Below are positions 275-60,393 of a stretch of 64,000 nt of DNA, piece by piece; positions within the stretch are counted from its first letter, which is position 1, and each line of letters opens with the position of its first letter. The position numbers and the translations under genes are program-made. The DNA is taken from NCBI GenBank assembly GCA_032622095.1, contig CP136064.1, positions 253,396,484-253,460,483 on the forward strand. The letters run 5' to 3'. The stretch comes from Siphonodentalium dalli. Its lineage: Eukaryota; Mollusca; Scaphopoda; Gadilida; Siphonodentaliidae. The notes beneath the pieces are model-generated. The model was given only the letters and a program-made list of their open reading frames with translations. It had not been told where the DNA came from and did not search any database.

Positions 275-465
275 TAGCCCTTTATTAGGGAGCCTCACAT
301 ATTATAAGAGAATACACTGGCTTACAAGGTCAACCTAAATATTGTTAGGCCAATGTATTCTCTTATATGTGTGAGGCTCCCTGTGGGAGATTCGTATATT
401 AAAGAGAATGCATTGGCACAGGGTTTTCTCAAAATTTCAGGAAGCTCAAGTCATGGAAGGGTTAA
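275..465 (+). mobile_element. Family A TTAA MITE (piggyBac-like), internally deleted copy A1
   Basis: The right end is typical of family A: the second hairpin, then CTCAAGTCATGGAAGGG and TTAA at 462-465. The left end keeps only TTAGCCCTTTAT and then jumps to AGGGAGCCTCAC, which is the apex of the first hairpin, so the left half of that hairpin is missing. The second hairpin at about 350-415 is intact. There is no coding capacity. Confidence 0.75.
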
Positions 466-660
466 TACTCTGTCTGGTTTATAAATGTGGCCCGTCTGAT
501 GCGTGACATAATGCACTGGATAATGGAGATAAAGATTTCTAATATCTGCATCCATTAGTTGATTCCCCATATTATCTTTAATCGGCTAATTCAGCCCATT
601 AGGACTTTTGCACTCGGGTGGCTGCAACGACATTGCCCAACTACCTGCACTCTTATTCAG

Positions 661-897
661 CAAGCCTTGAAATGAGGGTGTCGGTCATTTGCAGAATGAG
701 GTCCCCAGAGGGTGAATTTAGTGATGCTACCCCACATAGCGGGCTAGAAGAAAAAAAAATAGAATTTATGCGAAGAAGTTTTCTATAGAAATTTTATTTT
801 AAACTTTCCAGAGAAGATGAAGCCTAAGCACTATGAGCATAGCGGGCTAGCATCACCAAATTCATCCTCTGGGGACCTCATTCTGCTTACACATCAG
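661..897. mobile_element. Family F foldback MITE (hAT-like), mosaic and right-truncated
   Basis: It begins CAAGCCTTGAAAT and continues through the family's TTTGCAGAATGAGGTCC motif, so the left end is subtype F1. At 750-830 it carries a spacer (AGAATTTATGCGAAG, AACTTTCCAGAGAAGATG) otherwise found in the longer F2 subtype. The right side returns to the F hairpin and stops after CTCATTCTGCTTACACATCAG, without the mirror-image terminus. It is therefore a recombinant or internally rearranged copy that lost its right end. Confidence 0.75.
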
Positions 898-1263
898 AAC
901 TAAATTTATTTTGATATTTTAAAGGAATCGGCAATATTAATCGGGAATTCAAGTTGAATATTTGTCGCTAAAACACGCATTGCTAACTTTAGTTTACGAT
1001 TTTCCGACATTTGCTGATGCATGTACGAATTTTGAATTGAGTCTGCTTCGATTGACAACTCATGTTTGATTTCAACCTGGAAGTTTTTTTTACTATAGAT
1101 AACATCAGGAAGTTGTTCGGGCACTGCTCCGAGTTACCCAATGGAATGTACCCAGATATTTTATCACCGGAAAAAGGATTTCGCACTCCATAGCAAATAA
1201 TGTGGATAAACAAAAAGCTTTTTGTGAAGTTTCTTAAAAAAATTATGGTAGATTGAATTACAA
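898..1263. other. No feature seen
   Basis: AT-rich sequence between F and H elements. Two short open frames on the minus strand show no family resemblance and I do not call them. Confidence 0.5.
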
Positions 1264-1410
1264 TGGAGATAAGCACACCCTTTTTTGTTGGATATTCAGG
1301 ATTTGAGCATGAAAACAGTTTGTGAACTCCCCGGCCAAGCCGACTCTTTCACAAACTCTTTGCATGCTCAAAATACCTGAATATCCAACTCACAGAGTAT
1401 GTTTATCTCC
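1264..1410. mobile_element. Family H foldback element H1
   Basis: Left arm GGAGATAAGCACACCC then GTTGGATATTCAGG and GAGCATGAAAACAGTTTG; right arm the reverse complement, ending CAGAGTATGTTTATCTCC. The two arms fold over a short GC-rich loop near 1340. A second copy lies at 47834-47995. The superfamily cannot be told; no clear target duplication was seen. Confidence 0.65.
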
Positions 1411-1606
1411 TAAATAGTCGACTGAGTGCTGTTATAAGAACGTGCTGCTCGAAGAGATTACTCAATATGTTATTTAAGTAAGTATGTTTGTGTTATAGTA
1501 CTCATTGCAATGGGGTTCCTTCCCTTCTAAATATTAAATTTATTAAAATTTACAGTTTGAGAACATCAATATCAAACTGCATTTTGATTCAATGCTGATC
1601 ACAGAC

Positions 1607-1700
1607 ATATACTGTCTGACATTTGCAGAATTGGGTCCCCAGAGGGGGAATTTAGTGATCCTAACCCGCCTCTGGGAACCTCAATATGCGCAGGCCTCAA
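1607..1700. mobile_element. Family F fragment
   Basis: Contains CTGACATTTGCAGAATTGGG, then CCCCAGAGGGGGAATTTAGTG and CTCTGGGAACCTCAATATG, so both halves of one short F hairpin are present, but neither terminal CAAG end is. It is a decayed solo hairpin. Confidence 0.6.
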
Positions 1701-1834
1701 ATGCTACGAATATGAGTGTAATCCGCATTTTTTTTACGGGAGTTATGATCATTGTTGACTTAGAATTTACCTATTACTTTTGTTTCGCGATGATAACTTT
1801 AATAATTATAATTATCCCATTATTAATATGTAAT

Positions 1835-2175
1835 CAGTCTGTCTGTCCTTCTGTCCGTCTTTCCATCTGTCATAACATTTTTGGTTTCTGACCAATAACT
1901 CCAGTTTGGATTATTTGATCTGAACCAAAGTTGGTATGTGAATTTCCCAGCTGACGATACAGCTAGGCCAAGTTCAAATATAGGTTCCGTCCAATTATTT
2001 TTACATGAGTTACGGCCCATTTTCGACTTAGAATTTGACCGATTTCATAACACTTCGGTTTCCGACCGATAACTCCAGTTTTGATTATTTGAACTGAACC
2101 AAAGGCCAAGTTCGAATATAGGTTGTGTCTAATTATTTTCACATGAGTTACGACTTTCAACTTAGAATTTGGCAT
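1835..2175. repeat. G-type Pyr-rich degenerate repeat (TCTGTCCGTC class)
   Basis: Starts with a CTGTCTGTCCTTCTGTCCG stretch and contains two degenerate copies of a unit with 'ccgataactccagttttgattatttgaactgaacc'-like text (copies near 1885-2030 and 2055-2175). Short open frames here come from the lack of stop codons and are not genes. Confidence 0.55.
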
Positions 2176-2524
2176 TGAAATTAGGTGTATATCAGATATT
2201 CTTCAAATGTAAGCTCAAAGTATTATTTTATCTTGCAGTAGTACAATTCAAAATGGCCAAGTGGCATATTTTGCCACACCCTAGCGATGCTCTTGTTTTA
2301 AAATTGGTATATGAATGGCTCACAAGAAAATACAGGTTAAGTTTGACAGGTCAACGATTGTTCCCAGAAGCAAATTTTTCATTTCTAAAAAATCCACTGG
2401 TAAAATAAGCCGCCTTATTCTGTGGACATGTGGCCTATAGCGACAGTATATTCATTCATATGCAGGCGAGCAACTGCTGATATACCTGTTCAATGAAAAT
2501 AGGGTTTTGTGGTGATCTGATCGT

Positions 2525-3060
2525 TATAATTATACCACCCGCAACAAGTTGTGGGAGGGGGGGTATACCGGAATAGGCTTGTCTGTCCGTCTTTCGTGCC
2601 GTCCGTCTGTGGACACAAATTTGTCCGGAGTTTTTCTCAGTAGTTTTATGATCATTTTCCGTGAAACTTGGCACATACATCAACCACCATGGGAACCTGT
2701 GCACCTGCGATTATGACGTCTGTCAGACTTTTTTTGGTGGAGTTATCCCCCCTCTTTCGACTTTAATTTTTTTTTCGCAACATGTATAATTTTGTCCGAG
2801 CTTTTATTCCTACATTTTTAGGTAAATGTTTTTTAATCTTGGCACTGATATTTAGTACCATGGGAATCTGGGCACCTATGATTATGACGTTTGTCCGACT
2901 TTTTTTTGTGGAGTTATTCCCCTTTTTCGACTTAGAACATTTTCGCAACATGCATAATTTTGTCCGAGCTTTTATTTTTGGTGGAGTTAGCCCCCTTTTT
3001 CAACTTACAAAATCTTCTCAAAATGCATAATTTTGTCCGAGCTTTTATTCCTACATTTTT
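2525..3060. repeat. G-type repeat, about 2.5 units of roughly 150 bases
   Basis: Opens with a C/G homopolymer-flanked TATACCACCCGCAACAAG and TCTGTCCGTC. The unit includes AATTTTGTCCGAGCTTTT, TTCCTACATTTTTAGGTAAA, ACCATGGGAA, ATTATGACGTCTGTC and GTGGAGTTATCCCCC, and it recurs at about 2690, 2840 and 2970. Runs of T and C lengthen spurious reading frames. Confidence 0.65.
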
Positions 3061-3239
3061 CAGTCAATAGGTTTTAGGATTAAGGGTTAAGAGGTTCAAG
3101 ATTAGTGTTAGGGCTTTAAGGGGATTTAGGGTTACCTGTTCACATAATTTCAGTGCCCAATATACAGTAATGGCTTCTACATTCAAATAACATGTTGAAT
3201 ACGGGGGGTATACCTCAGTCCCATCTGGGACATACAGGC

Positions 3240-3821
3240 CCATCTCTAGTTATACCCCCCGCAACGAGGTTGTGGGGGGGGGGGGTATACTGGAATCAGC
3301 TCGTTCGTCCGTCCATCGTCCGTCCGTGGACACAAATTTGCCTGGAGTTTTTCTCAGTTGTTTTTTTTTATCATTTTCCGTTAAACTTGGCACAGACATC
3401 AACCACCATGGGAACCTGTGCACCTGCGATTATGACATCAGTCGCACTTTTTTTGGTGGATTTATCCCCCTTTTTTTGCAACATCTATAATATTGTCCGA
3501 GCTTTTATTCCTACATTTTTAGGTAAATCTTTTTTAAACTTTGCACAGATATTTAGTACCATGGGAACCTGTGCACCTGCAATTATGACGTCTGTCTGAC
3601 ATTTTTTGGTGGAGTTATCCCCCTTTTTCGACTTAGAAATGTTTTTGCAATATGCATAATTTTGTCGGAGCTTTTATTCCGACATTTTGCAGTCAATAGG
3701 TTTAAGATTAGAGTTAGGGTTGTTCACCTGCAATGGGAACTCTTATTTTATTATTTTAACTAACTGCTTACTGACATGTGAAACATCTTAGTATTTTAAA
3801 GACACGGGGGGGGGGGGGGGG
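3240..3821. repeat. G-type repeat, second block, ending in poly-G
   Basis: Same unit order as the block at 2525, with two copies of the ACCATGGGAACCTGTGCACC motif (3407 and 3559) and of AATTTTGTCCGAGC-like text. It ends near a 16-base G run at 3806-3821, mirroring the G run at 3272-3286. Homopolymer lengths may be unreliable in the assembly. Confidence 0.65.
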
Positions 3822-4261
3822 TATTCTTAGTCCAATTGGGACAGTCACACCTCTAGTTTACTGAAAATGTGAAATCTGCCAGGAACTCGACGTTTATGGG
3901 ATCAGTCCTTCGATTTAAAAAAAATAGGTGCACATGTCATTAATCATGCGCCTGATTTTGGGAGATAGAAAATAAACTGTATATAAATGTCCAAAGCGCA
4001 CAGATTTTGTGCCGTACTTTTCAAACTAAGGTGCACTATTGTGCACTGCACTATTGTGCACCTCAAAATTGAAGGACTGGATCATAACAGCTACAAAATG
4101 GCAGTCAATGTAGTTATAGGTTTATGACCATATTGACTCAAGGGAGTGGCTATCGCAGCAACACAGTAAAAGCGGAAGCAGTGTTAGGTGTATGTAAATA
4201 TATCTCAATGACTACTCAGTATACTGAAGTGACCTGAGCAGTCACACAATGTGCACTATTA
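3822..4261. other. No gene; short GTGCACTATT repeats
   Basis: The only internal structure I see is the word GTGCACTATT, repeated near 4030-4065 and again near 4250. No reading frame of note. Confidence 0.4.
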
Positions 4262-4724
4262 TAAGCCTGAGTTTAGGGTGCCTGTCATCTTCAGAATGAG
4301 GTCCACAGAGTGTGAATTTTGTGATGCTATCCCACACAGTGCCTAGCATCACCAAATTCACCCTCTAGGGGCCTCATTCTGCATGGCCTCATCTGCTATG
4401 GGAGACAGACTCAGATTGAAGCTCCCAAATTGTGAATATTGTGATGATCGAACGCCCATTGGGAACCTCGATTATGCAATGTGTAGTCAGCCAGTTTGTG
4501 AATATAGATAAACTAAACTAAAAAAGAAAGAATCTGGCTATGTGAAGAAGTTTCTATAGAAATTTGTTAATAAAGAAACTTTCCAGAGAAGATGAGGCCT
4601 AAGCAGAATGAGGTTCCCAGCGAGTGAATTTAGTGATGCTAGCCCGCTTTGTGGGATATAGTAACTAATTTCACCCTCTGGGGACCTCAATCTGCAAATG
4701 ACAGGCACACTAAACTCAGACTTG
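4262..4724. mobile_element. Family F2 MITE (hAT-like)
   Basis: Left end AAGCCTGAGTTTAGGGTGCC and right end GGCACACTAAACTCAGACTTG mirror each other. Between them lie two hairpins and the F2 spacer, with AGAAGTTTCTATAGAAATTT and AACTTTCCAGAGAAGATGAG. AATGTGCAC occurs on both sides but is offset by six bases on the left, so I do not claim it as a target duplication. Confidence 0.8.
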
Positions 4725-4763
4725 AATGTGCACAGTTCATTAAATCCTACTAACAGTGGCAGT

Positions 4764-4856
4764 TATCCCATTCTATACTCAATACTCATTGACGAGTAGT
4801 TCCCATAGGAAAATTTAGATACTAAGTTCAACAAACGACCATAGTTTATTTGTTGT
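4764..4856 (-). mobile_element. Family D TTAA MITE fragment
   Basis: Contains CTATACTCAATACTCATTG, ACGAGTAGTTCCCATAGG and the hairpin word AAGTTCAACAAACGACCATAG, ending TTTATTTGTTG. Only the right end and one hairpin half of D are represented. Confidence 0.6.
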
Positions 4857-4874
4857 CCCCCGAAACAAAAATTT

Positions 4875-5075
4875 GGGGGGGGGGGGGTGGGGGGTCCATA
4901 TAAATCAGCGGTGTCCATCCCAGATGGTTTCCAGATGATAACTTTAGTTTTAGTTATCAAATTGTTTTCAAATTTCATATGTGGTTTATTTGGTCCGCCC
5001 ATTGTTAATGGAATTATGGTCCTTGTCGACTGCTGAACAAAATTTTTAAATCGGGACATAATTTGCAATCATCAT
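4875..5075. repeat. Poly-G tract and G-type degenerate repeat
   Basis: A G-rich run at 4875-4894 is followed by text of the 'GGTTTCCAGATGATAAC...' class, also seen at 26330-26560. No gene. Confidence 0.4.
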
Positions 5076-6975
5076 AAAAAAAATGGGTTATTCCTTTCCC
5101 CGGACCACCCACCTTTGCCCTATGTTCAACACTATGCCATTTTTTGTATACACAGTCTGGGTTTCATGTTTACATGGTCAGTGTTTCTTGTAGACACGGT
5201 CTGGGTTTCTTTGGTGTCATTCTCCCAAAATGTTCAACTGATATCCACAAAATTTGAAATGTTGGAAACGCTATATGTAGCAGGTCTCCCTCCAGCAAAT
5301 TTAGGGAGACTTCAGGGAGAAGTGGGGATACTACCAAAAATTTACAATTTTCAAATATCGCTTTATTTTATAACATCTGACAATAAAAAATTTAAAAAGA
5401 TAAAATAAAACTAAACAAAATTGTCTTTATCTGAAATTAGCTTAATTAATTGTTATTATACATTTAAAATTTTTGGAAATGTTTTGTGTAGCTATCATTT
5501 AAGCAAGACAATTATCAAGTTACAGTAGTAGTTAATTTTTTAACTAAATGAAAGTAGTATATTATTTCCTAGACTGCAGCTTGGAAGATACGTTTGTACA
5601 GTCTGAATTATGATGCATGTAACTTTGTAAGTTTAATTTGGTCACGGCTGTAATGTGGGTGTCCGCTAAAATAAACAATAAGGACTAACTAACAAAGGAG
5701 TTGCAAAAGCTTTTATTAATTAATGGCCTCCCTTAATTAATGCCAACATCACTGGTATAATCCGATTAAAGCAATAAACTTGACATTATTTTATTTACGG
5801 AAGCGGTCTCTTCAAAAAGTCCGACGTGGTCTCTTCAAAAAGTCCGACGCGTTACCGAAACGAACTTCCGAAGCGCCTGGTACATACTCTGATAATGTCG
5901 TAATTGTTTTATATCTGAAAAGCGGGACGGTGGTCTTTTAAGATAATTAAAACATATTTATTTGTGACACTCAACGTTGGTCAGTAACAACACAGATGCG
6001 ATCATCTCATCGTGTTTTCAGCGTGTCAAAACATTCGTGATTAACATTCATTACCGCAAAGGGATCGAACAAAGGCGACTGAATAACACAAAACAATAGG
6101 TCATATTTTATTTTTTTATTTTAAACACTTGGGTCTTTGTCTCTGCATCGTCGGTTTCTTTTTGGGATGGCCGCCACAATTCATCTATATACGGACATGT
6201 CCGGGAAAAAAACTAGAAAAAAAATTAAGAAAAAAAAAATTCCCCCTAAAATTGAAGGCGACTTCGATTTCGCCTTAGAGCGACGACAGGGCGAAGTCAG
6301 CGAAAGTAAGGAGACAATCTCGCCCGAGTCGCCTTGTGAGCTGAGGCCTGATATGTAGCTTTAACAGACAATGAATAAAATAATTCCTATTTCAGATATA
6401 TGACAAATGACCTTTGGTAATATGACAACTGGTCAGCGAGCTTTATGCCAATCATTTGTGTTAATTGTGGAGAGTAATTAGCATTGCCATATTCATATGA
6501 GAAGGTCAGTCTTCCCATTCAGAGGCTTCTCTCCGATTCATATTTCACTTTATTGTAAGACTATCTTTCTTCCAATGTCTGTGATACGTTCAGCCAGCAG
6601 GCTTAAGGTTATCAGGACACTTAGAGGTCATATCAGGGTCTAAACTCCCTCCATACTATAGTTTTAAACAGACATCACACTCATGTAATCACTTAAATGC
6701 AGTTTGATGTCACATCAAGTTCTACCTGGAAGATTTCTGAACAATTTGTCGATATAGCACTAAAATATGTGTTTTGTTATTTTTATTTTATATTTTTCAA
6801 TAAATTTTGATATTGTTTTGTTTTGTGTCGGTTCAATTTTTTAGTCAGCGGTCGAACAAAATTGCAACTTGGAAAAATTGGAAGAAAATTGATTGGTCTA
6901 TAACATTTATAGTTCTACATAATTTGATGATTAAAATGAGAAAGCAGCGCGTGTAGTTTTGTAATAGTTTCATAT
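5076..6975. other. Long stretch without a recognised gene
   Basis: Mostly unique AT-rich DNA. A 23-base unit GGTCTCTTCAAAAAGTCCG(ACGY) is present twice in tandem at 5805-5850. At 6137-6358 there is a 73-codon frame rich in Lys, then Glu/Ser, starting MSLHRRFLFG; its 3' half is CpG-richer than its surroundings, but it matches no family I know and has no visible splice or promoter context. I leave it uncalled. Confidence 0.4.
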
Positions 6976-7452
6976 GAGGATTAACTGTCATGTGGACTGT
7001 TTTTATGGAAATATAACTGCGAGGTGAGTGGTCATAACTTGTGTAAAACTACATACAAGTTATGACTACTCACCTCGCGGTTACATCTCCATAAAAACAG
7101 TCCACATGACAGTTAATCCTTATATTTTTATACATTTAGCGAAAAAGCCACTTTTGTAAATGTATTTAAATCGAAAAGTGTATCGTGACAAAACCAGCCC
7201 AAAATATCCCATAGCACCCTTGGCAAAAGTTAACAGGAACAATTTCTCTTTATATTGAAACCCGATGATTTATTAAGTCAATCCTGCGCGAGTCCAAATG
7301 TGCCCATAAACATTACGCGTTCGTCTTTCCCAAACCTATGACGCGTCGATGTAATTATGAGGCTGCAGTTATGAGCTGTTGCGCGTTCACCGAGAAATAA
7401 TTGCAACTAGCCACGTGGGCGCCGACCAAACCGAATGCTGGATTTAGTGATA
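6976..7452 (+). mobile_element. Family I element I1, hairpin plus 330-base body
   Basis: Starts AGGATTAACTGTCATGTGG, forms a hairpin of about 150 bases (6976-7125) centred near 7050, then continues into a body containing CGCGCGAGTCCAAATG-like text, GCCACGTGGGCGCCGACC and a final ATGCTGGATTTAGTGATAA. A second copy in reverse orientation is at 62532-63020, which shows that both hairpin and body move as one unit. The class is unknown: no coding sequence, and no obvious terminal inverted repeats over the whole length. Confidence 0.75.
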
Positions 7453-14175: not shown

Positions 14176-14194
14176 CAAAAGGCCTTTTAGAAAG

Positions 14195-15866: not shown

Positions 15867-16136
15867 GATACATACAAGGCTTGAAATAGTGTGTCTGTCA
15901 TTTGCAGAATGAGGTCCCCAGAGGGTGAATTTAGTGATGCTACCCCGCATAGTGGGCTAGTATCACCAAATTAACCCTCGGGAACCTCATTCTGCTGAGG
16001 TGTAAGCAGAATGAGGTTCCCAGAGGGTTAATTTGATGATGCTAGCCCGCTATGCGGGGTAGCATCACTAAATTCACCCTCTGGGGACCTCATTCTGCAA
16101 ATGACAAGACACACTATTTCAAGGCTTGGATACATA
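15867..16136. mobile_element. Family F1 MITE with perfect 8-base target duplication
   Basis: GATACATA at 15867-15874 and 16129-16136 flank a 254-base element running from CAAGGCTTGAAATAGTGTG to its mirror. Inside are two hairpins back to back (about 15905-16005 and 16010-16100), joined by CTGAGGTGTAAGCAG. The perfect 8-base duplication and the CA start point to hAT-type transposition; the loop of the first hairpin has GGGCTAGTATCACC. Confidence 0.9.
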
Positions 16137-16847: not shown

Positions 16848-16851
16848 AGCA

Positions 16852-17024
16852 TACAGTAATGCTCTAAGTAATTGACTCCTTAACCACAGCAGAATTATGG
16901 GTAATTTATCTCTCACTGAGAGCTTTCCGATGAATGGCAACAAGCCATATTTCCGACTAAATCCGAAAAAATTACTCATAATTCTGCTGTGGTTAAGGAG
17001 TCGATTAATTAGAGCTTTACTGTA
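16852..17024. mobile_element. Family E TA-flanked foldback MITE (E1)
   Basis: TA plus CAGTAATGCTCTAAGTAAT at the left and ATTAGAGCTTTACTG plus TA at the right. The apex GAGAGCTTTCC and right arm (CGATGAATGGCAACAAGCC) are kept, but the left arm lacks about 45 bases, so the palindrome is lopsided. Confidence 0.85.
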
Positions 17025-23470: not shown

Positions 23471-23938
23471 AGTGACGATATTTTTAGCTTGTCTTTGACG
23501 GAACCAATATAGGATCATATTGACCAGGCATTTATAGTCTGGAAGTTCTGACCTTGTAGAGTATAGAGAAGACACCATTAGACTGATCACATAATTAGTA
23601 ATTTAACCCTTTCTATACCAAATGGATTCTTCCATTCAACTTTAAAAGTATACATAATGGAATGGTCTTCTATTCATTTGGGGGATGTTCAGGAAATAAA
23701 AGCAGATGACAGACGATAAGATTATTCAAGTGCAGAAGGATTTCTATTAATTGGTGGGAAATGTTCAGATAATAAGTTCAACGAATTACCTATGGTGATA
23801 TTTTTAGCTAGTCTTTGACAGAACCAATATAGATCATAATATTGACCAGACATTTATTGTCTGCAATTTCTGGCTTTGTAGATCAATGAGAAAATACAAT
23901 TAGACTGATCACAAATATTTTTTTGTAATTTAAAACTT
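23466..23938 (+). repeat. Direct duplication of about 130 bases split by a D element
   Basis: GTGACGATATTTTTAGCTTG to CACATAATTAGTAATTTAA (23468-23604) recurs as GTGATATTTTTAGCTAG to CACAAATATTTTTTTGTAAT (23796-23935). The intervening DNA is family D (D5). Confidence 0.75.
23603..23795 (+). mobile_element. Family D, broken at the hairpin apex (D5)
   Basis: Begins TTAACCCTTTCTATACCAAA and runs through AATGGTCTTCTATTCATTTG to AATAAGTTCAACGAATTACC and TATGG, then stops. The whole right hairpin arm and right terminus are missing, and the break lies at the loop. Confidence 0.82.
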
Positions 23939-30427: not shown

Positions 30428-30643
30428 TACAGTAATGCCCTAAATAATCGACTCCTTAACCACAGCAGAATCATGGGTAATTTTTCAGGTTTAGTTGGAA
30501 ATATGGTTTGTTGCCATTCATCGGAAAGCTCTCACTGAGAGCTTTCCAATGAATGGCAACAAACCATATTTCCGACTAAATCCTGAAAAATTACCCATGA
30601 TTCTGCTGTGGTTAAGGAGTCGATTATTTAGAGCATTACTGTA
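30428..30643. mobile_element. Family E foldback MITE (E5)
   Basis: TA-CAGTAATGCCCTAAATAAT...ATTTAGAGCATTACTG-TA, 212 bases, apex CTCTCACTGAGAGC. Arms are nearly complementary throughout. An 81-codon frame crossing it is an artefact of the repeat. Confidence 0.9.
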
Positions 30644-30950
30644 TGAGAGTCTATTTTTGGCTACGGAAATGGATGAGCAGTTCGAGTTTGGTCTGGCGAT
30701 GGCAAAGCTTATCCTGACAGCCATGGATTTCAATTCATGAAGGGAGATAGGGAAACTTCTTCAGTTGTTTACCAGGGTTAGTGGTACCTATGATCAGTGC
30801 AGATATTTCTCAGGGAGATTAACCTGTGTGGTCTTTCCTCCACCAATACTAGCAATGGTGTAATATGGCCCAGCGATTAAAACAACAGCAGATCAAATAC
30901 ACTTTTGTCATTTGAATTGACATTGTAAGTGGACAGCCTAACCTGGATCT
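30644..30950. other. No gene called
   Basis: GATGAGCAGTTCGAGTTTGG near 30670 looks codon-like but is too short to judge. Loose resemblance to 22600-22720 is noted there. Confidence 0.3.
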
Positions 30951-39905: not shown

Positions 39906-39910
39906 TCAGG

Positions 39911-40515
39911 TACAGTAATGCCCTAAATAATCGACAAGCCATATTTCTGACTAAATCCTGAAAAATTGCCCATAATTCTGCTGTGGTTAAAGGCACGTGC
40001 GGCCTTAATTGTCGAAAATATTCATATTTGTTCCAAACACCGTAAACAGAAAAACATTAAAACGCATACAGTTCCGTTCATATATACCATGACCATCGCG
40101 TAAACAGCATGCTATCATAAAGACCTACTATATTTTACCTAAGCAAGAGCCTGATTGTGTTACAGAAGACAGCACAATGCTACTGGCTAATCACACACAA
40201 ATGGCATAAACGCTCTTTATTAGTTCCATATCAGGTATTCACCAACAAAGAACGCTCTTTATGTTTACCATCATAATATAAACAAACACCAGAAAAGTAA
40301 CTTTTTACGCCTTTGTTTACATAACAATGGTCAAACATATGACCATAACATACTGTTTATGCGATATTTCTTATTTGTATACGGACAAAGTCTATCTACA
40401 TTTTTATGTTCTTTCAGTTTGTGGCGGTTTTTGACGGGTTGAGACATTTTCACAGGATACCCACCGCCAAGGCCAACCGTGTCTTTAAGGAGTCATTATT
40501 TAGGGCATTACTGTA
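39911..40515. mobile_element. Family E MITE split by another transposon (E7)
   Basis: TA-CAGTAATGCCCTAAATAAT, then a deletion from the left terminus straight to AAGCCATATTTCTGAC in the right arm. The right arm runs to GCTGTGGTTAA at 39990 and resumes at 40485 as TTAAGGAGTCATTATTTAG...ACTG-TA. Removing the insert restores the family sequence GGTTAAGGAGTC. Confidence 0.88.
39991..40484. mobile_element. 494-base TTAA-flanked element nested in E7
   Basis: TTAA at 39987-39990 and 40485-40488 bracket it. Left end AGGCACGTGCGGCCTTAATT; right end on the other strand AGACACGGTTGGCCTTGGCG: imperfect inverted ends sharing AGNCACG and GGCCTT. These ends are unlike A-D (no CCCTTT), so it is another TTAA family. 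The interior mentions AACGCTCTTTATNNNTT twice (40209 and 40252); no transposase seen. Confidence 0.8.
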
Positions 40516-42750: not shown

Positions 42751-42803
42751 TACAGTAATGCCCAAAATAATCGAAGGAGTCAATTATTTAGGGCATTACT
42801 GTA
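42751..42803. mobile_element. Minimal family E remnant, 49 bases (E8)
   Basis: TA-CAGTAATGCCCAAAATAAT + CGA joined directly to AGGAGTCAATTATTTAGGGC + ATTACTG-TA. Only the two termini remain; nearly the whole hairpin was excised. Confidence 0.92.
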
Positions 42804-46560: not shown

Positions 46561-47114
46561 CGTGAACATGCCTACAAGGTTGAATAATAGTACCTTTATT
46601 TTACACCCCAGTTTTATACATCACAGTGGAATGTATAATTTTTTTTTATCTCGCCCCAGTGGTTTACTGATAAGGCATGCAACACATTCTTCAGTATTAA
46701 CATAGGTATTGTGCGCTCAGGGAAACAGCTGTTTTGTCAATACATGCTGTACATTCACATTCTCTATGGCAAGATTGCTATGATTGCAGTATATTCATAC
46801 ATTTTCAAAGCAGTATGTGTATATAGAACATAGCAGCTACATGTATCAACAATGTGATTTAGTTATACATTCATATTATGTTGTTCTAATATAAACAATC
46901 TCTCAACAGATCGTTTTCCAAGTAGACTCATTCTACAGAGGCATTGGTATTTTTCCTGCCAAGGCTTGGTGGTCACAGTGGGTGCTCAAATGGTAAGCTG
47001 CATAGTGAAATTAGTGAATATCAAAGCTGGTTTGATTCACAATAAGGACCATTTGTTTTTACTTGCAGAAGTAGGGTAACATGATTTGTGTGTTTGGGCA
47101 AGTTTGTCAGCTAT
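46561..47114. other. No gene; weak SINE-like word
   Basis: CCCCAGTGGTTTACTGATAAGGC at 46663 (in part) resembles a pol III A box, but no B box at the right distance was found. Confidence 0.3.
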
Positions 47115-47225
47115 CACTGAGAGCTTTCCAATGAATGGCAACGAGCCATATTTCCGACTAAATCCTGAAAAATTACCCATAATTCTGCTGTGGTTAAGGA
47201 GTCGATTATTTAGGGCATTACTGTA
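47115..47225. mobile_element. Family E right half only (E10)
   Basis: Starts CACTGAGAGCTTTCCAATG, exactly the apex of the palindrome, and runs to GGGCATTACTG-TA. The left arm is wholly absent. Confidence 0.88.
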
Positions 47226-47833
47226 AATTAACCTTATGTGCAGTATTTTCTCGACCAATAGAGCTGATCCTGGCAGATCAAATAACACTAAAAGCCAACC
47301 AAGAAAGCAATTATGACCATAAAAAAAAACGAAGTTGGACTCGATCTTCTATGGGATGATGATGGAGAATTGATTCCACAACTGATTCTATTTTCTCATT
47401 ACAAGACAATAAGCAGTTAACAAATGTAACAGAGCAACTACTATCCATTCCGTTCTTATCCTCGGGCATTTCGCGAAGAGAAAATGTTTCAAAATCATTT
47501 AATTAAATGGTTGCTATTGTATATTGTGACCATGGAAACGAAAATTAAATTGAGTTTTGAGCCTTGTACATTAATTAAGTGATTACTTGGAGAGATGGTA
47601 AATGGAAGGCTGGAGCCAGTAACATCCATTTAAGCCAGTGGGTATTATGCTAGAATTTGGAATTGGAATGCTAACAAGCGACAAGGGACCGATAGATTGT
47701 GCCCGCTGGGCAAATGTTATTAGTAATAGTTTCTAATCCATTTTATCTGTCAGGAAAAACATTGATCTAAAAGTAATTCGTGTAAGTTCATTTCTGGTAC
47801 ATTTCATCCTACTGTATTCTGCTAGGAAAATTT
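47226..47833. other. No feature seen
   Basis: AT-rich unique DNA. Confidence 0.4.
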
Positions 47834-47995
47834 AAGAGATAAACGTACTCTGTTGAGTTTGATATTCGGGAATACGAGCATGAAAACAGTTTCTGAACGA
47901 GTTGGCTTTACTGCGAGTTCACATGTGAACGAGTTGGCTTGACGGCGAGTTCACAAACTGTTTTCATGCTGGAGTCCCCGAATATCTAACAAAAC
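47834..47995. mobile_element. Family H foldback element (H2)
   Basis: AGAGATAAACGTACTCTG, TTGATATTCGGGAATACG and GAGCATGAAAACAGTTTCTG pair with CAAACTGTTTTCATGCTGG and CCCCGAATATCTAAC. Its loop has GAACGAGTTGGCTT twice. It is followed without a gap by E11, so its right terminus is cut. Confidence 0.75.
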
Positions 47996-48162
47996 AGAGC
48001 TTTCCGATGAATGGAAACAAGCCATATTTCCGACTATATCCTGGAAAATTCATCAGAGAGCTTTCCGATGAATGGCAACAAGCCATATTTCCAACTAAAT
48101 CCTGAAAAATTACCCATAATTCTGCTGTGGTTAAGGAGTCGATTATTTAGGGCATTACTGTA
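47996..48162. mobile_element. Family E right half, with internal duplication (E11)
   Basis: Starts at the apex word AGAGCTTTCCGATG. The segment AGCTTTCCGATGAATGG...CTGGAAAATT is present twice (about 47998 and 48059), then the arm continues to the terminus GGGCATTACTG-TA. Confidence 0.87.
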
Positions 48163-48426
48163 ATTCAATCTCCCATAAAAATCGAAAGAAACTGTACGAA
48201 ATGCGCTTTTATCCTTTTTTGGTGATCAGATCTCTGGGTATGTTCCATGGGTTTACTTGGAACAGCACAGGAAGAACTTCATGTCAACCGTATATCTGTA
48301 GAAAACATCCATGAGCGGTTGACTCAATTACTCAACTCACGGCGGTGACGTATATTACCAGTATGCTCATTCTCATGGCACAGTGCTCTATTCAAAATTA
48401 TTTAATCGATCAGCGGAATATGCTGG

Positions 48427-49401: not shown

Positions 49402-49429
49402 TTATTGTACATGTTTGGCTGACTTAGAA

Positions 49430-50180: not shown

Positions 50181-50184
50181 TACC

Positions 50185-51948: not shown

Positions 51949-52143
51949 AAACTGATGAGTGTACTGGATAACAATATCAGCTTTAAGATTTTGTAATTTT
52001 CAGGATTCAGCTCAAGTTAGAGTTAGATTTTGAAATATTTTTTCTGCTAAAAGCTTGATATCTATTTCTGAGTCATGAATCTCCCTTTAAATTTCAACAG
52101 TGTCTATAGTTCAGAAAAGTTGTCAAGCTTACTATGAGTGCAG

Positions 52144-52442
52144 TTAACCCTTTCTTTACTAAATGGATTATTCCCCCATCAGTTATAAGAGTAATCATTG
52201 GAATCGCCTATTATTCATTTGGAGGGGTGTTCAGGAAAAATGAGCAGACGAAAAGACTATAAATACAGAAGGATTCCTATTCCTTTGTGGGAAATATGGA
52301 GATAATAAGTTCAACAAACGACCTTTTATTATCTGTTGACTGCTTATTTTTTTCTGAAAAACCCTCCAGATGAATAATAGACCATTCCAATGTATACTTT
52401 GATAACTTGGTGGGAGAATCTATTTAGTAAAGAAAGGGATAA
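52144..52442. mobile_element. Family D inverted dimer of left halves (D12)
   Basis: Left: TTAACCCTTTCTTTACTAAA TGG to AGTTCAACAAACGACC. Right, read on the other strand: the same left-end text again (TTTCTTTACTAAATAGATTC, ATTGGAATGGTCTATTATTC, TGGAGGGTTTTTC). The normal right half is absent. The join is at the hairpin apex. Confidence 0.8.
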
Positions 52443-52494
52443 ACACAAACATTAAACACAAACCTCTCTAACCTTAATACAGAGTTACATACAA

Positions 52495-52859: not shown

Positions 52860-54010
52860 AATGTCCTTTTCAACATATTTATATTAAGAACCTTTAACCT
52901 GATGCAACCTAATGTCATCGATGCATATATGCAAATACACAGTCGGCACCTAGAAACTAATCTCTAATGATAAAGATGTCAATTTGGGTGTTCAGCCCCA
53001 GTAGAATGATAGTATTGACTGAGAGGACTATAGTGCATTGAAACTCCTATCACAAACGCATCTATATGCAAATAAACACGGTGACACCCAAAATAAATGA
53101 GAAATTTCCTAATTTAATCCACGGCTGTCGCTATGTTGTTAGCTTCTAGCTCCGGGCACAATCACCAATGTCTGTCCTTATTTGGGTCGCTGATTCTCAA
53201 TGTAAAACAAATTTTCGCGACATCTTGTAAATTACGTCGTGGCTACTGTATGTATGTGGACGACGACAGTGGTAGCTGATTAGGTCTCGGCAAACATTTG
53301 ACTAGCCCTCGCCATTATTTTTAACCACAGAAGTCAGCCCTACATAAAAAACCAGCAGCCAATAGGAAGGTAATTGTGTCACAAAAGCACACTTTGTGGT
53401 TGGTTCATTTCCATGGTGGATGCTTTTAAAAGACGCACAAAGAAGCTTGTGTTCTCAAATGAATGGCTTAATGTCTGTGCTATAGATAGATGTTATTTCA
53501 TTAAGTACAGACCAAGGATATAATTTCAATGAAGGCTTGATTATACAGTGGCTCGCCATCTATTGTGAATATATCTACGAAGGAGTTTATATTTCCTCGT
53601 CAGTTGACCTGCCAGCATTGAATCGCGCTGGTATATCACTGGCTGGTTTGTTAAATATAGGTGTTACCCAGCATTCATATGTGTGGTGGATTGATTTAAT
53701 GAATTGACTGTTACGGCAGCGTGCACTTGCCGCAGTGTGGATAGATAACACAGTGTTACTCAGCAGGGAAGTAGTGTTTTGGCGGGACTTAACCGCCTGT
53801 CACATGTGATCTGAAGATAGTTGGTACAGTCAAGTAGGGATGTTTGGATGCTATTGATGATGGCTTTGTTGGACTTTTATTGTGTTTTCTGTTATAAAGG
53901 TACTTGTATAATACTTTTTTTTATCAATACTTCCTTTCACTACTAAAGTTTGTGAGATTTGTAAAAAAAAAGTTCACTTCACAGTGTTAGTGTTGTGCTC
54001 ACATTATTCA
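52860..54010. other. Unique stretch with weak promoter/first-exon signals
   Basis: 53100-53830 is less AT-rich and free of recognised repeats. It has a CCAAT word at 53362 (GCAGCCAATAGG) and a TTTTAAAAG word at 53425. At 53858 ATGATGGCTTTGTTGGACTT opens a short frame that reaches AAAG-GTACTT, a possible donor, at about 53897. Earlier ATGs exist, so support is weak. Confidence 0.25.
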
Positions 54011-54014
54011 ATTC

Positions 54015-54890
54015 GTGCTGTATCTGTTTCCTCATCGACCCTCTTGTTGTTATGAATACTTTGCACATGAAAGGGAATACCTATCTACTCGATACCTCAA
54101 CAGGTGCTCGAGGATATGGCACAGATTGGTGGTTGATGTCATGAACTTCCCGCCTTCTCTGTTTGTACTTTTAAAATGCTCCAAATTACTAAAGTCTGAA
54201 GATTATTGTTGTTTATTTAGGTTGATTTCATATTTAATGACCATCATTTGTTATCATTCCTTGTCTTGCTGTTATGAAAATTGTGGACAATGCTTAACCC
54301 TTTCTATATTTTGGAATGGTCTACTGTTCATCGGGAGGGATTCCTGGGAAATAGAGCAGACGATAGACGTATAAAAAGATAATACAAATGCAGACGGATT
54401 CATATTCTGGTGGGAAATGTTCAGATAATAAGTTTGACAAATGACCTATGAGTCATCTGTTGAACTTATTATATGAACATTTCCTAAGTGAGAACTATTC
54501 ATCAATGAGTATTTAGTTTAGTAATGGTTAACTTGATACTTCAATGGTTGGTTCAGGATATGACACAGATTTGTGGTTGATGTCATGAATTTACCGCCCT
54601 CCTGTCAATTTATTCTTTTTATATTCTCCAAAAAAAACCTAAAGTTTATGAAGATTATTGTTGTATTTTGGATGTTGATTTCATAATTCAGGACCATCAT
54701 CGGTTATTGTAGTTTATTTCTCAACTTTATTTATTTCTCAACCTAGTAACTTGATACATCAACAAGTGCTTAATTAACTATATGGCATAATAATGGCACA
54801 TATTTGTTGTTGATACTGTGATGAAATTTTCCTCCAACTAAGTATATGGTGATTATTGTTTTTATGTAGATTTTATACCTTTAAGCCATC
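54015..54890 (+). repeat. Three diverged tandem units split by D13
   Basis: Units near 54090-54265, 54532-54715 and 54745-54890 share GATATGGCACAGATTGGTGG-like text, GTTGATGTCATGAA, CCTCC-type words and GAAGATTATTGTTGT. The third is the most diverged. Confidence 0.65.
54294..54531 (+). mobile_element. Family D TTAA MITE, full length (D13)
   Basis: TTAA at both ends (54294-54297 and 54528-54531). A 25-base deletion near the left end joins CCCTTTCTATA to TTTTGGAATGGTC. The hairpin is AGATAATAAGTTTGACAAATG / CTGTTGAACTTATTATATG. 238 bases. Confidence 0.88.
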
Positions 54891-54893
54891 TGC

Positions 54894-55252
54894 TTAACCC
54901 TTTCAGTGTCAGGGGCCGATCTCATCGGCCCTAATTTACGGTCTGTAAAATCGGCCCTAAAAAAAAATATTTGGGTTTAATTTTGTTTTTGGTATGCTTA
55001 AGCATGCTATAGCGAATTTAAAAACAAACTGGATAAAACATTAGGGCCATGTTATAACTCAAAACTATCACCAAGTATTCATAGTAATAATTTTGATGCC
55101 CATGATAAACGTAAGATTCCCTGGCTCTAAACCTACAAAATAAGTCTCTTAAAGAATATAAGAAAAAATTATTAAAATTGTTAAAAAAATAATGACAAAT
55201 GATGAAAAATTGTTAGGCCAATGCATTCTCTTATATATGCAAGGCGACCTAT
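54894..55252 (-). mobile_element. Family B, cut at its hairpin apex (B3)
   Basis: TTAACCCTTTCAGTGTCAGG, then GGGCCGATCTCATCGGCCC and nearly the full B1 interior in reverse, reaching the shared hairpin's first arm and stopping at AAGGCGACCTA, the loop. The second arm and terminus are missing. Confidence 0.85.
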
Positions 55253-55261
55253 TATCCTCTT

Positions 55262-55820
55262 TTAATGTGTGGGTATTTTTTGTCCATCTGTGTAGATATC
55301 TCTGCCATGGGTTATCGTATCTGAATGAAGTTTGGTATTGAGGCTCACCATCATGAATGCTTTCATTTTATAGTTGATACTTCGTATAATTTTGGGACCA
55401 TATCCAGTGATATTTGTTGATTTGCATATGGCCTACATCTGTTGCTACTGTGCTATATGGAGTCCCAGTTTATTGGAGCAAAATGTATTATCTGAACATT
55501 TCCCATGGGAACTACTCATCAATGAGTATATATATGTGTAGACAATCGACTTTCGCTTCTAGAAATAAGTGAAAATGTCGCATTATAACTCCACTGTAGA
55601 AGCTGTTTGGTATGTGCTGGATTAGTTGTCTGTCTGTCCACCTGTACATCCATCTGTCTTCTTGCCCGGATTTTATTTCCAATCAATATCTTGGATCTTA
55701 TTCGTAGACTGAATGGCTTTGGATCTTGGTTTTCGATTAGCACCACTTACAGGATTATATTTATTTGGGGTTTCATCTGCCCATTTGCACTGATGTTGTG
55801 TGGGCCCCTGTTAGTTCAGT
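55262..55820. repeat. J- and G-type repeats with a small D fragment
   Basis: J text at 55262-55400 (GTATCTGAATGAAGTTTGG). At 55486-55531 a D scrap: ATTATCTGAACATTTCCC + ATGGGAACTACTC. From 55600 CTGTCTGTCCACCTGTACATCC and degenerate G units. Confidence 0.5.
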
Positions 55821-56282
55821 ATATGCCTCAGTAAAGTGGATAGTGCATTTGGCCATCATAAGTCGTTCAGTAATGATGATACTGTTTCATGTTAACAGTG
55901 GATTAGTGGATGAATGTCAGTATGAGTCAATAGCCATCCTTCACGTTGCGGGATTGAGTCAGTTTTTTAATCCTATGAGATGAATAAATGATACATTTGA
56001 GGGACATCTTCACTTTCTCTGAGCTGCATGGTTACGATGTCAAACTAGCTCCTGACAAAGATTTATACTAAACCAAAATCCCCAGACCAGTTGCAGAGTA
56101 TCTCAGTGACAGAGCAATACCCACTATCATTAAAATATTTGCCATTTGTTTATCATGGAGGCCATAATTAGTGGGTAATTTTTACTCTGCATTGACTCCA
56201 CCCAAAGGGAGAAACAAGTAGGGTTTTAGCCTATTCATCTCCTGGTTGCATCTCTTGCGTCACTATTTCTGCTCTATCATCA
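55821..56282. other. No feature seen
   Basis: Unassigned DNA before the composite repeat block. Confidence 0.4.
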
Positions 56283-56770
56283 TAGCCATAATGCATATGG
56301 ACCAGGGGGATGGGAGGGCTGCATCCATCAAAATGTTTTGAAAGCTCAAAATTCTGACAAATTTTAGATATTTTCGGGCAAATTGAATGGTATTTCAGGG
56401 GGAAATTTTAGCAAATTACAGTATTTTTCACATTTCTGCCGGAATTATACATATCTAAGGTCAATTTGAATCTATTTTGTTATATTTCTGTGTATATATA
56501 AAGGTATATTCTACAAAAACTGTTAACACCATGAATATATCATATAAAAAAAAATATTCGGGCAAAAAGTCTCGCCCTCCACCTAAAAAAAAAGTCTCAC
56601 CCCCCCCCTTAAAAGGGCGCCCATACAGCTTGGTCTCCCATCATATTTCTGTGTATATACAAGGTATATTCTACAAAAACTGTTAAAACCATGAATATAT
56701 CATTTTTAAAAAACACATTCGGGCAAAAAGTTTCAGCCCCCCCCCCCCCTCAAAATTTGAGCACCCGTAC
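56283..56770 (+). repeat. Repeat N1 with 161-base tandem duplication
   Basis: GGACCAGGGGGATGGGAGGG to ATTTCTGTGTATATA is shared, inverted, with 58970-59348. The block ATATTTCTGTGTATATA, GGTATATTCTACAAAAACTG, CATGAATATATCAT, CGGGCAAAAAGT is then repeated with a 161-base period (56482 and 56643). The first copy ends CATACAGCTTGGTCTCCC, the seed of the minisatellite. Confidence 0.8.
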
Positions 56771-57465
56771 ACCCTGGTCTCCCGTCATATTTCTCCATAC
56801 TCGGCTGGCACCATACAGCTTGGTCTCCCGTCATATTTCTCCATACTCGGCTGGCACCATACAGCTTGGTCTCCCGTCATATTTCTCCATACTCGGCTGG
56901 CACCATACAGCTTGGTCTCCCGTCATATTTCTCTCCATACTCGGCTGGCACCATACAGCTTTGTCTCCCATCATATTTCTCCATACTCGGCTGGCATCAT
57001 ACAGCTTGGTTCTCATCATATTTCTCCATACTCGGCTGGCACCATACAGCTTGGTCTCCCGTCATATTTCTCTCCATACTCGGCTGGCACCATACAGCTT
57101 TGTCTCCCATCATATTTCTCCATACTCGGCTGGCAACATACAGCTTGGTTCTCATCATATTTCTCCATACTCGGCTGGCACCATACAGCTTGGTCTCCCG
57201 TCATATTTCTCCATACTCGGCTGACACCATACAGCTTGGTATCCCATCATATTTCTCCATACTCGGCTGACACCATACAGCTTGGTTTCCCGTCATATTT
57301 CTCCATACTCGGCTGACACCATACAGCTTGGTCTCCCGTCATATTTCTCCATACTCGGCTGACACCATACAGCTTGGTCTCCCGTCATATTTCTCCATAC
57401 TCGGCTGACACCATACAGCTTGGTCTCCTGTCATATTTCTCCATACTCGGCTGGCATCATTCTTT
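56771..57465 (+). repeat. 46-base minisatellite, about 15 copies
   Basis: Unit CTTGGTCTCCCGTCATATTT + CTCCATACTCGGCTGGCACC + ATACAG. CATACTCGGCT marks each copy from about 56796 to 57442. Variants: +CT insertion (copies 4 and 7), TTTGTCTCCCAT (5 and 8), GGTTCTCATCAT (6 and 9), GACACC for GGCACC (10-14). Because 46 is 1 mod 3 and the unit lacks stops in several frames, long reading frames appear on both strands; they are not genes. Confidence 0.95.
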
Positions 57466-57829
57466 GACCAAACCTCTTCTATATGCTGCTCAGAAATTCT
57501 TTTATCGGTGGCACGTGTATAATTGCTCCGTGTTGCTGGTGTTACTCTCCCTAACTGATATGATTGGTAGAATTAGCTGTGACCCCCTAGTCCGATGAAA
57601 TTGGCCTATTAATACAATTACTCATATAGGAAAATGTTAAATTCTAAATCAAAGCTATCTCTCCTAGTAGAGCGAGCATACCAACAATTCTCTTCAAATT
57701 GGCCAGTGGTGGAATTTCATCAATCTTTTTCATGAATTCAAACATTAACCGTTCCAGTGCCAAAGTCTGAAGAGATGTGGATGGTTTATAAGAATTATAT
57801 TTATTTATATATGATGAAAATGGACTACA
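57466..57829. other. No gene called
   Basis: A 65-codon minus-strand frame at 57644-57841 (SSYINKYNSYKPSTSLQT...) lies partly in repeat O1 and is not supported. Confidence 0.35.
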
Positions 57830-58215
57830 TATTAAAGACATAATATGTACTTGTTCGGGTGCGTGAAACTGACAAGTTAGTATTCAGGCGCTATGCCAAT
57901 TGGAGGAATGTAACATTCTACTAACACCACCGAAAATCTGAAGCAAATCAACTGTACAACTCCATAGAAAATATCATCTGAACTATGCTCAATTGTAAAT
58001 ATTTACTACTTGATTCGTGACACATCTATCGCTGATAAACTAACGAAAATTATTTCACCATCGAGAGTCACTGCATTTAATTAATTAATATATAAGAATA
58101 GCGATGTGTGTTGTCTATTCAGATATAATATTAGTAAAAATAACTATACTTTGAACAAGATTATTCTCCGTTTCTATTTGATCACCCTACCGGAGTGTTT
58201 CACATCACTTTAAAA
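57830..58215 (+). repeat. Repeat O, first copy
   Basis: From TTAAAGACATAATATGTAC through CTTGTTCGGGTGCGTGAAAC, GCTATGCCAATTGGAGGAAT, ACTCCATAGAAAATATCATC, CTGAACTATGCTCAATTG to TTTGATCACCCTACCGG and GTGTTTCACATCAC. Confidence 0.8.
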
Positions 58216-58317
58216 AATGATGGGGGATCTCAGCGAGATGTAAAAATTATCACATCTAAACCTCAAAAGATTTAAGATATTAGAAAATTAATTAAATTAA
58301 ATAATGATGTAATTTTA

Positions 58318-58705
58318 TGTTCATTTAAAGGCATAATATGAACTTGTTCGCGTGCGTGAAATTGATAAGTTAGTACCCAGGTTCTATGCCAACCTAAGGA
58401 ATGTAGCTTTCTATATACTAACATCACCAAATTTTTTTAAGAAATCAACAATACCACTCCATAGAAAACATCACCATACCACTCCATAGAAAACATCACC
58501 TGAACTATGCTCAATTGATTCGGGATGCAACTATCTGCGATAAACTAACAAATAATTTTGCCATCGAGTCATTGCATTTAATTAATATATAAGTATGATT
58601 GTGTGCGTTGTCAGTTTGTATTTTATATTCGTAAAAATAACTACTTTGAATAAGATTTTCTCAATTTCTATTTGATCACCACACAGGAGTGTTTCACATC
58701 ACTTT
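58318..58705 (+). repeat. Repeat O, second copy
   Basis: From GTTCATTTAAAGGCATAATA through CTTGTTCGCGTGCGTGAAAT, ACTCCATAGAAAACATCAC (present twice in a 29-base step near 58456-58505), CTGAACTATGCTCAATTG to TTTGATCACCACACAGG and GTGTTTCACATCACTTTG. Confidence 0.8.
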
Positions 58706-58969
58706 GAGGAAAAAGTCAAGGAAACTGCGAAGATCGCTTAATTATGATAGTTCAGCGAATGCTGCTGGATTAAGTAGCAATTGGATGGAAGACAACCATG
58801 GAATTCCATGTATCACAATCAGTGATTACAGCCGCTTGGTGTCAATTTAGGTCATGTGATACAGCAATTAGTAGAGATTGCTTAGCATTCCTTGGTTAAG
58901 CAATGGATACCATGGATACTCTGTTAATCAAAAAGGAAAGCTTGTCAATGTTCCATTCAAATTATGGTT

Positions 58970-59348
58970 TATGCCACCCATAGCCGTATGGGCGCCTAAA
59001 TTTTTATGGGGGTGGATTGAGACCTTTTTGCCCGAATTTGTTTTCATGATATATTGATGGTTGTAATACAGTTTTTGTAGAATATACCTTGTATATACAC
59101 ATAACTATAACAAAATAAGATTCCAATTAACCTTAAATATGTATAATCCAGGCAGAAATATAAAAAATACTGTAATTTGCTACAATTTCCCTGAAATATA
59201 CAATTTCCCTGAAATACCATTCTATTTGACAGTAAATTAGCTCCAATTTGCCCGAAAATTGCCCCGAATTTTTAGCTATCAAAATGTTTGGGGGGAGGCG
59301 GTTGCAGCCCTCCCAACCCCCCTGGCCTGTACGGTTATGATGCCACCC
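58970..59348 (-). repeat. Repeat N2, inverted copy of N1
   Basis: GGGCGCCTAAATTTTTATGG, TTTTTGCCCGAATTTG, CAGTTTTTGTAGAATATACC, ATACAATTTCCCTGAAATACC (in part doubled) and GCAGCCCTCCCAACCCCC + CTGGCC are the reverse complement of N1. It lacks the 161-base tandem copy and has no minisatellite. Confidence 0.8.
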
Positions 59349-59916
59349 TTGTACTGCCATCATATAGAATATCAAAATGATCAGGCTTGATTACCATATG
59401 TAATATTAAATGGTGCGCAATGCGTTGATATAGTTTGCTGTTGAACCTGCTATATAAAAGCAGTCATTATACCAGAAATGGCATGCTATTAATATAAGTT
59501 AGCAAGCTTAATTTCCTGGAAACGTTTGGTACCATGCCAATTCATTGTGCATATTCCTTTTATGGTAACAGCGATAAATAACATGCATATTATCCATGTT
59601 CGATATGAATCTGCTTGGGGGACCTCCTGTTTATATCCAGATCAAATAAAGATACACTTCTCTACATCTGTCTAGACATTTTTGCAGCACTTTGATGCTA
59701 CCTCCTAAATTTTTTTTTATGGGTCTGAAGATCACCTTGCCTATACCATGTACTTGATAACAAATTGGCATGTCTCATGCTTGAATGAAAATCAATTTTT
59801 GGTGTATGTAAAATGCCTTTGGTTTTGTTTACTTCGTGTAGACTGATGATATTGGTGTATTTTCCGCTCATTTTTCTTCATGTTGGTTCTTCTGGCTTCG
59901 TAAATAGTAAGTTGTC
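59349..59916. other. No feature seen
   Basis: AT-rich unique DNA. Confidence 0.4.
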
Positions 59917-60165
59917 TTAACCATTCCATGACTGGAGCTTCCTGAAATTTTACGAGAACCCTGTGACAATGCATTCTCTTATATATGCAATTCTCCCATA
60001 GGGAGCCTCGCATATCTAAGAGAATACATTGGCCTAACAATATTTACATTGACCTTGTAAGCCAATGCATTCTCTTATATATGCGAGGCTATGGGAGACT
60101 CGCATATCTAAGAGAATGCACTGGCACAGGGACTTTAATGCTGCACCATCACAGCTCAAGGTTAA
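59917..60165 (-). mobile_element. Family A TTAA MITE, full length (A7)
   Basis: TTAACCATTCCATGACTGG and AGCTCAAGGTTAA at the ends. First hairpin 59968-60034; second with a shortened apex (GCGAGGCTATGGGAGAC). Confidence 0.87.
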
Positions 60166-60256
60166 AGCACAGCAGACTGGGTATATAGTAGTCAGATTAT
60201 TCTATAGAGAGTTGGGGAATAACTCCCACTTGTCTGTCTAAAGCACCAATTCAGTA

Positions 60257-60393
60257 TACAGGAATGCTCTAATTAATCGACTCGGCGAGAGCTTTCTGAT
60301 GAATGGCAACAAGCCATATTTCTGACTAAATCCTGAAAAGTTACCCATAATTCTGCTGTGTTTAAGGAGTCGATTAATTAGAGCATTACTGTA
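60257..60393. mobile_element. Family E with left arm deleted to the apex (E12)
   Basis: TA-CAGGAATGCTCTAATTAAT + CGACTC joined to GGCGAGAGCTTTCTGATG, the apex, then the full right arm to GAGCATTACTG-TA. 133 bases. Confidence 0.9.

Follow-up and report, generated by a model that had tools for sequence, protein, structure and literature searches.

Deletion endpoints recur at the hairpin apex of a palindromic element family in the genome of the scaphopod Siphonodentalium dalli

In family E, a palindromic element of the scaphopod Siphonodentalium dalli, deletion endpoints are enriched at the hairpin apex, and this enrichment is genome-wide, recurrent and composed of many different junctions. The analysis followed up a 64,000-nucleotide (nt) stretch of contig CP136064.1 (hereafter the window), part of a 2.23-Gb assembly of nine contigs (GCA_032622095.1). 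The window is dense in short palindromic elements, with 100 inverted pairs detected, of which the 25 longest were listed. E is a 217-bp palindrome with 107-nt arms, a 3-nt loop and TA-flanked ends, and one exact 28-nt end of it was found 8957 plus 8777 times in the genome. An intact copy at 30428..30645 (no strand assigned), our reference for the arms and the loop, folds as one hairpin at −115.5 kcal/mol (z −30.9). Apex breakage is confirmed as real and general for E in this genome and is supported for a second family, A; in families C and D the bias is only weak.

The genome-wide evidence comes from exact patterns consisting of a 16-nt arm anchor, 0–14 free bases and a 14-nt inner probe, counted in equal-width bins ending at the probe. 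With an outer anchor near the E end, the apex probe gave 882 matches, compared with 25 for a probe 20 nt before the apex and 79 for one 28 nt after it. With a mid-arm anchor free of CTC, the corresponding counts were 981 at the apex and 43 at 20 nt before it. Reversed-pattern controls gave zero in all five counts. The before-apex and apex probes represent one stretch of the arm on opposite strands and have 11 of 14 bases in common; their conservation is therefore matched and cannot account for the 23- to 35-fold step.

The same bias was observed when individual copies were aligned in the window and in 27 random 10-kb stretches (270 kb; the first 27 of 160 drawn, from the contig parts then known). 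As a null, each deletion was slid along the element, and copies with an endpoint no more than 6 nt from the E apex were counted. Each sample contained 8 broken E copies; 6 of those in the random stretches had such an endpoint (1.55 under the null, p = 0.0008), as did 4 of those in the window (0.67 under the null, p = 0.0017). A sequence-only reading of the window had argued that random decay should place breakpoints anywhere along the arms; the E apex endpoints exceed the sliding null in both samples. The test draws on 26 E loci, 11 of which carry no deletion and were excluded (including W21197, with a divergent 9-nt end). Locus W48057 was added by eye, W47109 and W47992 were reduced to one endpoint each, and W47109 was entered at the aligner's value of 8.5 nt and scored as a miss at 6 nt. 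Deletions were called from 8 nt upward, a cut under which the 7-nt apex deletion of L014 fell.

Families A and B share one hairpin arm, their hairpins measuring about 68 nt, so that the description of the broken families as unrelated does not hold for this pair; D consists of one hairpin between unequal flanks, and C contains two 93-nt hairpins. For internal deletions in A, C and D, 14 of 38 had an endpoint no more than 5 nt from an apex (5.36 expected, p = 0.0002) after exclusion of truncations, B-type family boundaries, seven occurrences of one recurrent D indel at 104–121, five cases at the inner hairpin of long-form C and one C junction seen repeatedly. When no deletion was excluded, the figure was 14 of 51 (7.12 expected, p = 0.008). 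Stretches L002–L008, obtained by a non-random search for similarity to C, were used for these three families only. Family A alone showed 5 of 9 deletions within 5 nt of the apex (1.53 expected, p = 0.01; p = 0.009 without exclusions).

The apex junctions of E are diverse. Among the first 100 places listed for each search, the outer anchor yielded 15 gap sizes (largest class 16) and the mid-arm anchor 14 (largest class 24, with peaks at gaps 6 and 9), and we therefore conclude that many junctions and many events are involved, independence being judged from the junction sizes. Both-ended E copies of 85–145 bp, the range that the length survey covers, numbered 2601 and 2627 on the two strands; the search pattern is self-complementary. 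Among the 55 both-ended elements listed, 39 measure 130–145 bp, the size expected from loss of one arm to the apex, a pattern that by itself might reflect the edge of a declining length distribution. We read 23 short copies in full, taken from 27 elements after removal of four represented by letters from a single strand; these copies have both ends by design of the search pattern. Twelve are apex-broken, five are near-symmetric and six are neither. Apex-broken forms make up 11 of the 21 junction types, or 10 of 20 if C1:21184902, which has the same join as C1:11496420 and a different outer arm, is merged with the latter. By our own rough estimate, given the deletion lengths, about a quarter of the short copies would touch the apex by chance. 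The five near-symmetric copies (C1:6953438, 17109139, 17294730, 21299358 and 22950434, in G000) have lost central sequence so that a shorter palindrome remains, as seen at the human PATRRs (palindromic AT-rich repeats).

At 20 apex junctions, the endpoint on the apex side falls between −2.5 and +8.5 nt. Retained DNA reaches past the loop on the side of the lost arm in 8 cases and on the other side in 1 (p = 0.04), an excess that a nick slightly off the tip would leave, as in off-centre hairpin opening. The homology at 16 apex junctions ranges from 0 to 4 nt: it is zero at 8 of the 16, where lost bases that are unknown count as no homology, and 3–4 nt at four. The left arm was lost 10 times and the right arm 4 times on the + strand, a difference that is not significant (p = 0.18).

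The seven breakpoints from which the analysis started are all present in the window, each at or a few bases off a hairpin apex; three of them (D5, E10 and D12) were placed by eye, as the aligner ran past the join. A1 (286..465, − strand) is a family A element with two hairpins, of which the second is cut at its apex; the alignment ends at consensus position 179, 0.5 nt from the apex, and the breakpoint lies at about 285. Past this breakpoint there is only a stretch, TTTAGCCCTTTAT, that by eye resembles the element end. B3 (55205..55252, − strand) is half of an A/B-type hairpin, cut 1.5 nt from the apex in the alignment. E12 (60257..60393, no strand assigned) has its breakpoint at the loop as described, but it is not a truncated copy: both E ends are intact, and one arm has an internal deletion that begins 27 nt in from the end and reaches the apex (alignment positions 110–190, 1.5 nt from the apex). 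E10 (47109..47231, + strand) is a single right arm of E with its start, set by eye, in the loop; it keeps TCACTGAGAG and begins about 4–6 nt from the apex by eye, the aligner's value being 8.5. E11 opens with a partial arm that starts at the apex (47994..48055, + strand; alignment and reading) and adjoins a hairpin element, F, at 47848–47996. The aligner placed this end at −0.5 nt and then formed a spurious bridge into the flank, so that the placement comes partly from reading the sequence. By eye, the end of F at 47996 is fused with the E11 apex over a common CAGAG, and a second E arm, again running from the apex, follows in tandem at 48055..48165 (+ strand). F also occurs at 1280–1395.

The two D copies have more complex structures. 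In D5 (23603..23796, + strand), the most informative of the seven, the left arm extends about 4 nt beyond the apex and runs directly into another copy of the element's own left flank, from which the end at 23796 was set by eye. This other copy, at 23797..23938 (+ strand), matches the left flank at 23477–23611 at 84% and carries the target site without D. The region 23477–23938 thus holds half a D element between two copies of one 135-nt flank. On one reading of this arrangement, an apex break was repaired on an element-free allele; the alternative is a simple deletion into an older tandem duplicate. In D12 (52144..52443, + strand; by eye), the long arm of D reaches the apex (52321–52326) and is joined to an inverted long outer arm without the inner part. 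The break lies within 3 nt of the apex by eye, and the aligner gave no apex event here. The arrangement looks as if the strand had folded back at the apex. The long outer arms on both sides of D12 are 83% complementary; most other D copies examined have one long and one short arm. Two further copies outside the original list also end at an apex in the alignment. The E copy at 16852..17024 (no strand assigned) has one arm internally deleted up to 5.5 nt past the apex (positions 114–158), and a family A copy at 62265..62481 (+ strand) has a hairpin arm deleted up to 1.5 nt from the apex (positions 163–180).

We consider that these junctions probably reflect center-break resolution, in which the apex of a hairpin or cruciform is opened, one arm is lost and the ends are joined with 0–4 nt of homology. 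Near-perfect palindromic miniature inverted-repeat transposable elements (MITEs) would extrude hairpins or cruciforms. Cutting of the structure would then open its tip, either right at the apex or a few bases away, creating a double-strand break between the arms. One end would lose part or all of its arm before the ends were rejoined, and the product would keep one arm intact to the apex with the other partly or wholly gone. We infer the hairpin or cruciform structure, a nuclease of the Artemis or Mre11/CtIP type, and the end-joining pathway. Of the causes proposed by the sequence-only reading, structure-specific cutting agrees best with one endpoint fixed at the apex, a variable second endpoint and little homology. 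Replication slippage is the weaker one, because it would remove stems between direct repeats and leaves solo arms that start at the apex unexplained.

Several observations weigh against center-break resolution, or limit how far it extends. Four E copies (W39911, W40485, W42751 and L015:825) break away from the apex. In the window, the deletion in the copy at 39908..39990 (+ strand) crosses the apex from −85.5 to +23.5 in the alignment, and the copy at 42751..42803 (no strand assigned) is reduced to its two ends, near-symmetrically, from −85.5 to +78.5. The central deletions in 5 of the 23 short copies, within 10 nt of symmetry, would need a further step. At some outer-anchor junctions, the outer arm and the apex have CTC or CTCC in common, and homology-driven deletion thus contributes. 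The excess of DNA retained past the loop on the side of the lost arm may come in part from over-extension of the alignment and includes W47109 at its aligner value. The genome-wide counts are of copies rather than events, and some broken forms with shared junctions were amplified by transposition. The three probes imply unequal deletion lengths, which are not fully separable from position, although length alone would hardly produce a step of 23- to 35-fold across 20 nt. The claim that four families are affected draws mainly on E and A and is weak for C and D, neither of which is significant when no deletion is excluded: 5 of 14 C deletions lie near the apex with exclusions (p = 0.10) and 5 of 20 without (p = 0.31), and the corresponding figures for D are 4 of 15 (p = 0.03) and 4 of 22 (p = 0.11).

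The main rival is interrupted gap repair or replication, in which copying proceeds from both sides, synthesis stops or switches at the apex through fold-back of the nascent strand, and the tracts are joined. Abortive gap repair is a term used for mariner elements and MITEs, and many broken E copies (E12, L017:7330 and L029:6263) keep both ends like internally deleted transposons. The fold-back-like arrangement of D12, judged by eye, and the 24 positions at which the arms of one copy share variants (see below) are also in its favor. It does not predict solo arms without the other end, such as W47109, W47994, L017:3035 and W55205, and by reasoning, a template hairpin should halt synthesis at its base rather than its tip. 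Interrupted copying with fold-back at the tip seems rather unlikely as the general explanation and may act as a contributor. A few deleted subfamilies, each arisen once and then amplified, would produce an apex peak that is merely copy number. Identical broken forms do occur at separate loci (C1:11496420 and 12650386; C1:2440136 and 3215268; C1:7849306 and L029:6263), and the mid-arm peaks at gaps 6 and 9 point the same way. The many gap sizes among the first 100 places listed per search, the differing junctions in the random stretches, and the same bias in family A and in solo arms make amplification improbable as the whole source of the peak.

Slippage or microhomology joining could also delete DNA between short direct repeats that happen to lie at the apex, CTC for example; GACTCC of the outer arm and CTCTC at the apex are suitable sequences, and the four junctions with 3–4 nt of homology would fit it. 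The half of the junctions with zero homology (a lower bound on homology where lost bases are unknown) speaks against it, as does the mid-arm anchor, which lacks CTC and still gave its 981 apex joins versus 43; we regard this explanation as very unlikely. An assembly or cloning artefact that collapses palindromes had been put forward as equally serious. Palindromes are hard to amplify and clone, and in PMC4255720 a deletion in a human database palindrome is attributed to clone culture. Against an artefact stand the 11 of 26 E loci that carry no deletion in the same assembly, identical broken forms at separate loci, and broken copies that have TA-flanked ends, and we consider it highly unlikely.

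The arms of E appear to change together. In 11 full E copies, the same non-consensus base occurs on both arms at 24 positions, and 63 positions differ on one arm. The mean arm divergence is 5.5% within a copy versus 8.6% between copies. The 3-nt loop varies among copies in the window and in L011, L014, L015 and L029 (ACT/AGT, GGG/CCC, AC and GCC). The shared arm variants and the loop differences suggest arm homogenisation, and the existence of symmetric E subfamilies implies arm-to-arm copying at some time. A life cycle can be imagined in which breakage at the tip removes an arm, the remaining half element with its short end can still move, and the surviving arm is copied by hairpin templating to restore the palindrome. 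Since the arms change together and half elements keep both ends, such a cycle of arm loss and regrowth is permitted but unproven, and we consider it doubtful. If true, it would explain both the same variants on the two arms and the loop differences between lineages. At L029:9183-9529, an E element sits in the TA at the apex of a hairpin of family C; hairpins can thus also be split by insertion at the tip.

By their ends and targets, the families look like MITEs of known types, the names being assigned from end and target motifs. E has TA at both ends, CAGT-like termini (TACAGTAATG...CATTACTGTA) and no coding capacity, and resembles Tc1/mariner-type MITEs, of whose ends we take CAGT to be a mark. 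A cryptic transposon end at the E apex was considered and rejected by eye: the CAGT at the tip faces the wrong direction, and other loops have no CAGT. Family A ends in TTAACCCTTT, and D has the same kind of end. The consensi and several copies of A and D show a TTAA target and CCC-type ends (TTAACCCTTT...AAAGGGTTAA), presumably a piggyBac-type motif, and these two families look like piggyBac-type MITEs. C may be a hAT-type MITE; in the one copy clearly read, GATACATA flanks 15872-16131 on both sides as an 8-bp target duplication. A scan of the window against Rfam at the gathering threshold and a tRNA scan of the window found nothing, viral contigs contained no exact match to one E pattern and one A pattern, and genome contigs contained no exact match to one D pattern. 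A further palindrome family, outside the original list of breaks, occurs at 6972-7125 and 62857-63021, with 71-nt arms that are 93 and 99% complementary. A tandem array of about 15 copies of a 46-bp unit lies at 56719-57533.

Center-break rearrangement is known from other systems. In the review PMC8701086, most rearrangements of a mouse transgene palindrome are described as small symmetry-breaking deletions at the junction that stabilise it, 93% of 118 rearrangements in cells being deletions, and the same review traces center-break rearrangement in mouse transgenes and cells to Akgun 1997 and Cunningham 2003. E is alike in having deletions at the palindrome centre that break symmetry, but the mouse system is one 15.4-kb artificial palindrome, whereas E is an abundant natural family of 217-bp elements. 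At the human PATRRs on chromosomes 8 and 22, breaks lie at the centre of symmetry with minimal homology at the joins, according to PMC4255720. E resembles them in both respects; however, PATRRs undergo translocations with symmetric deletions, while in E most deletions lie within the element and affect one side, near-symmetric ones being a minority. According to PMC7999016, the enzymes that open hairpin ends are Artemis in human cells and Sae2 with MRX in yeast. Such opening predicts a tip break as found at E, where the enzyme may be of a comparable kind. Internally deleted Tc1/mariner elements and MITEs, ascribed to abortive gap repair, keep both ends and lose the inside, as do many E copies; E differs in that one endpoint is fixed at the palindrome apex. 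Judged by titles and abstract openings of the papers listed, searches of an open-licence library with the terms used brought up no previous genome-wide account of MITEs broken at the apex. Center-break resolution is itself a known mechanism, and what looks new is its scale in MITEs.

The resolution of natural palindromes has mostly been inferred from a few engineered or disease-linked sites, and center-break repair has until now been described chiefly in transgenes, yeast and a small number of human loci. E looks like a large natural record of the process: a single 217-bp palindrome with apex junctions well above a thousand in number and with intact copies as controls. From its junctions one could measure, in a germ line, where breaks fall, how far resection runs, how homology is used and how arm identity matters. 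Apex breakage would also give a reason why palindromic MITEs decay into half elements.

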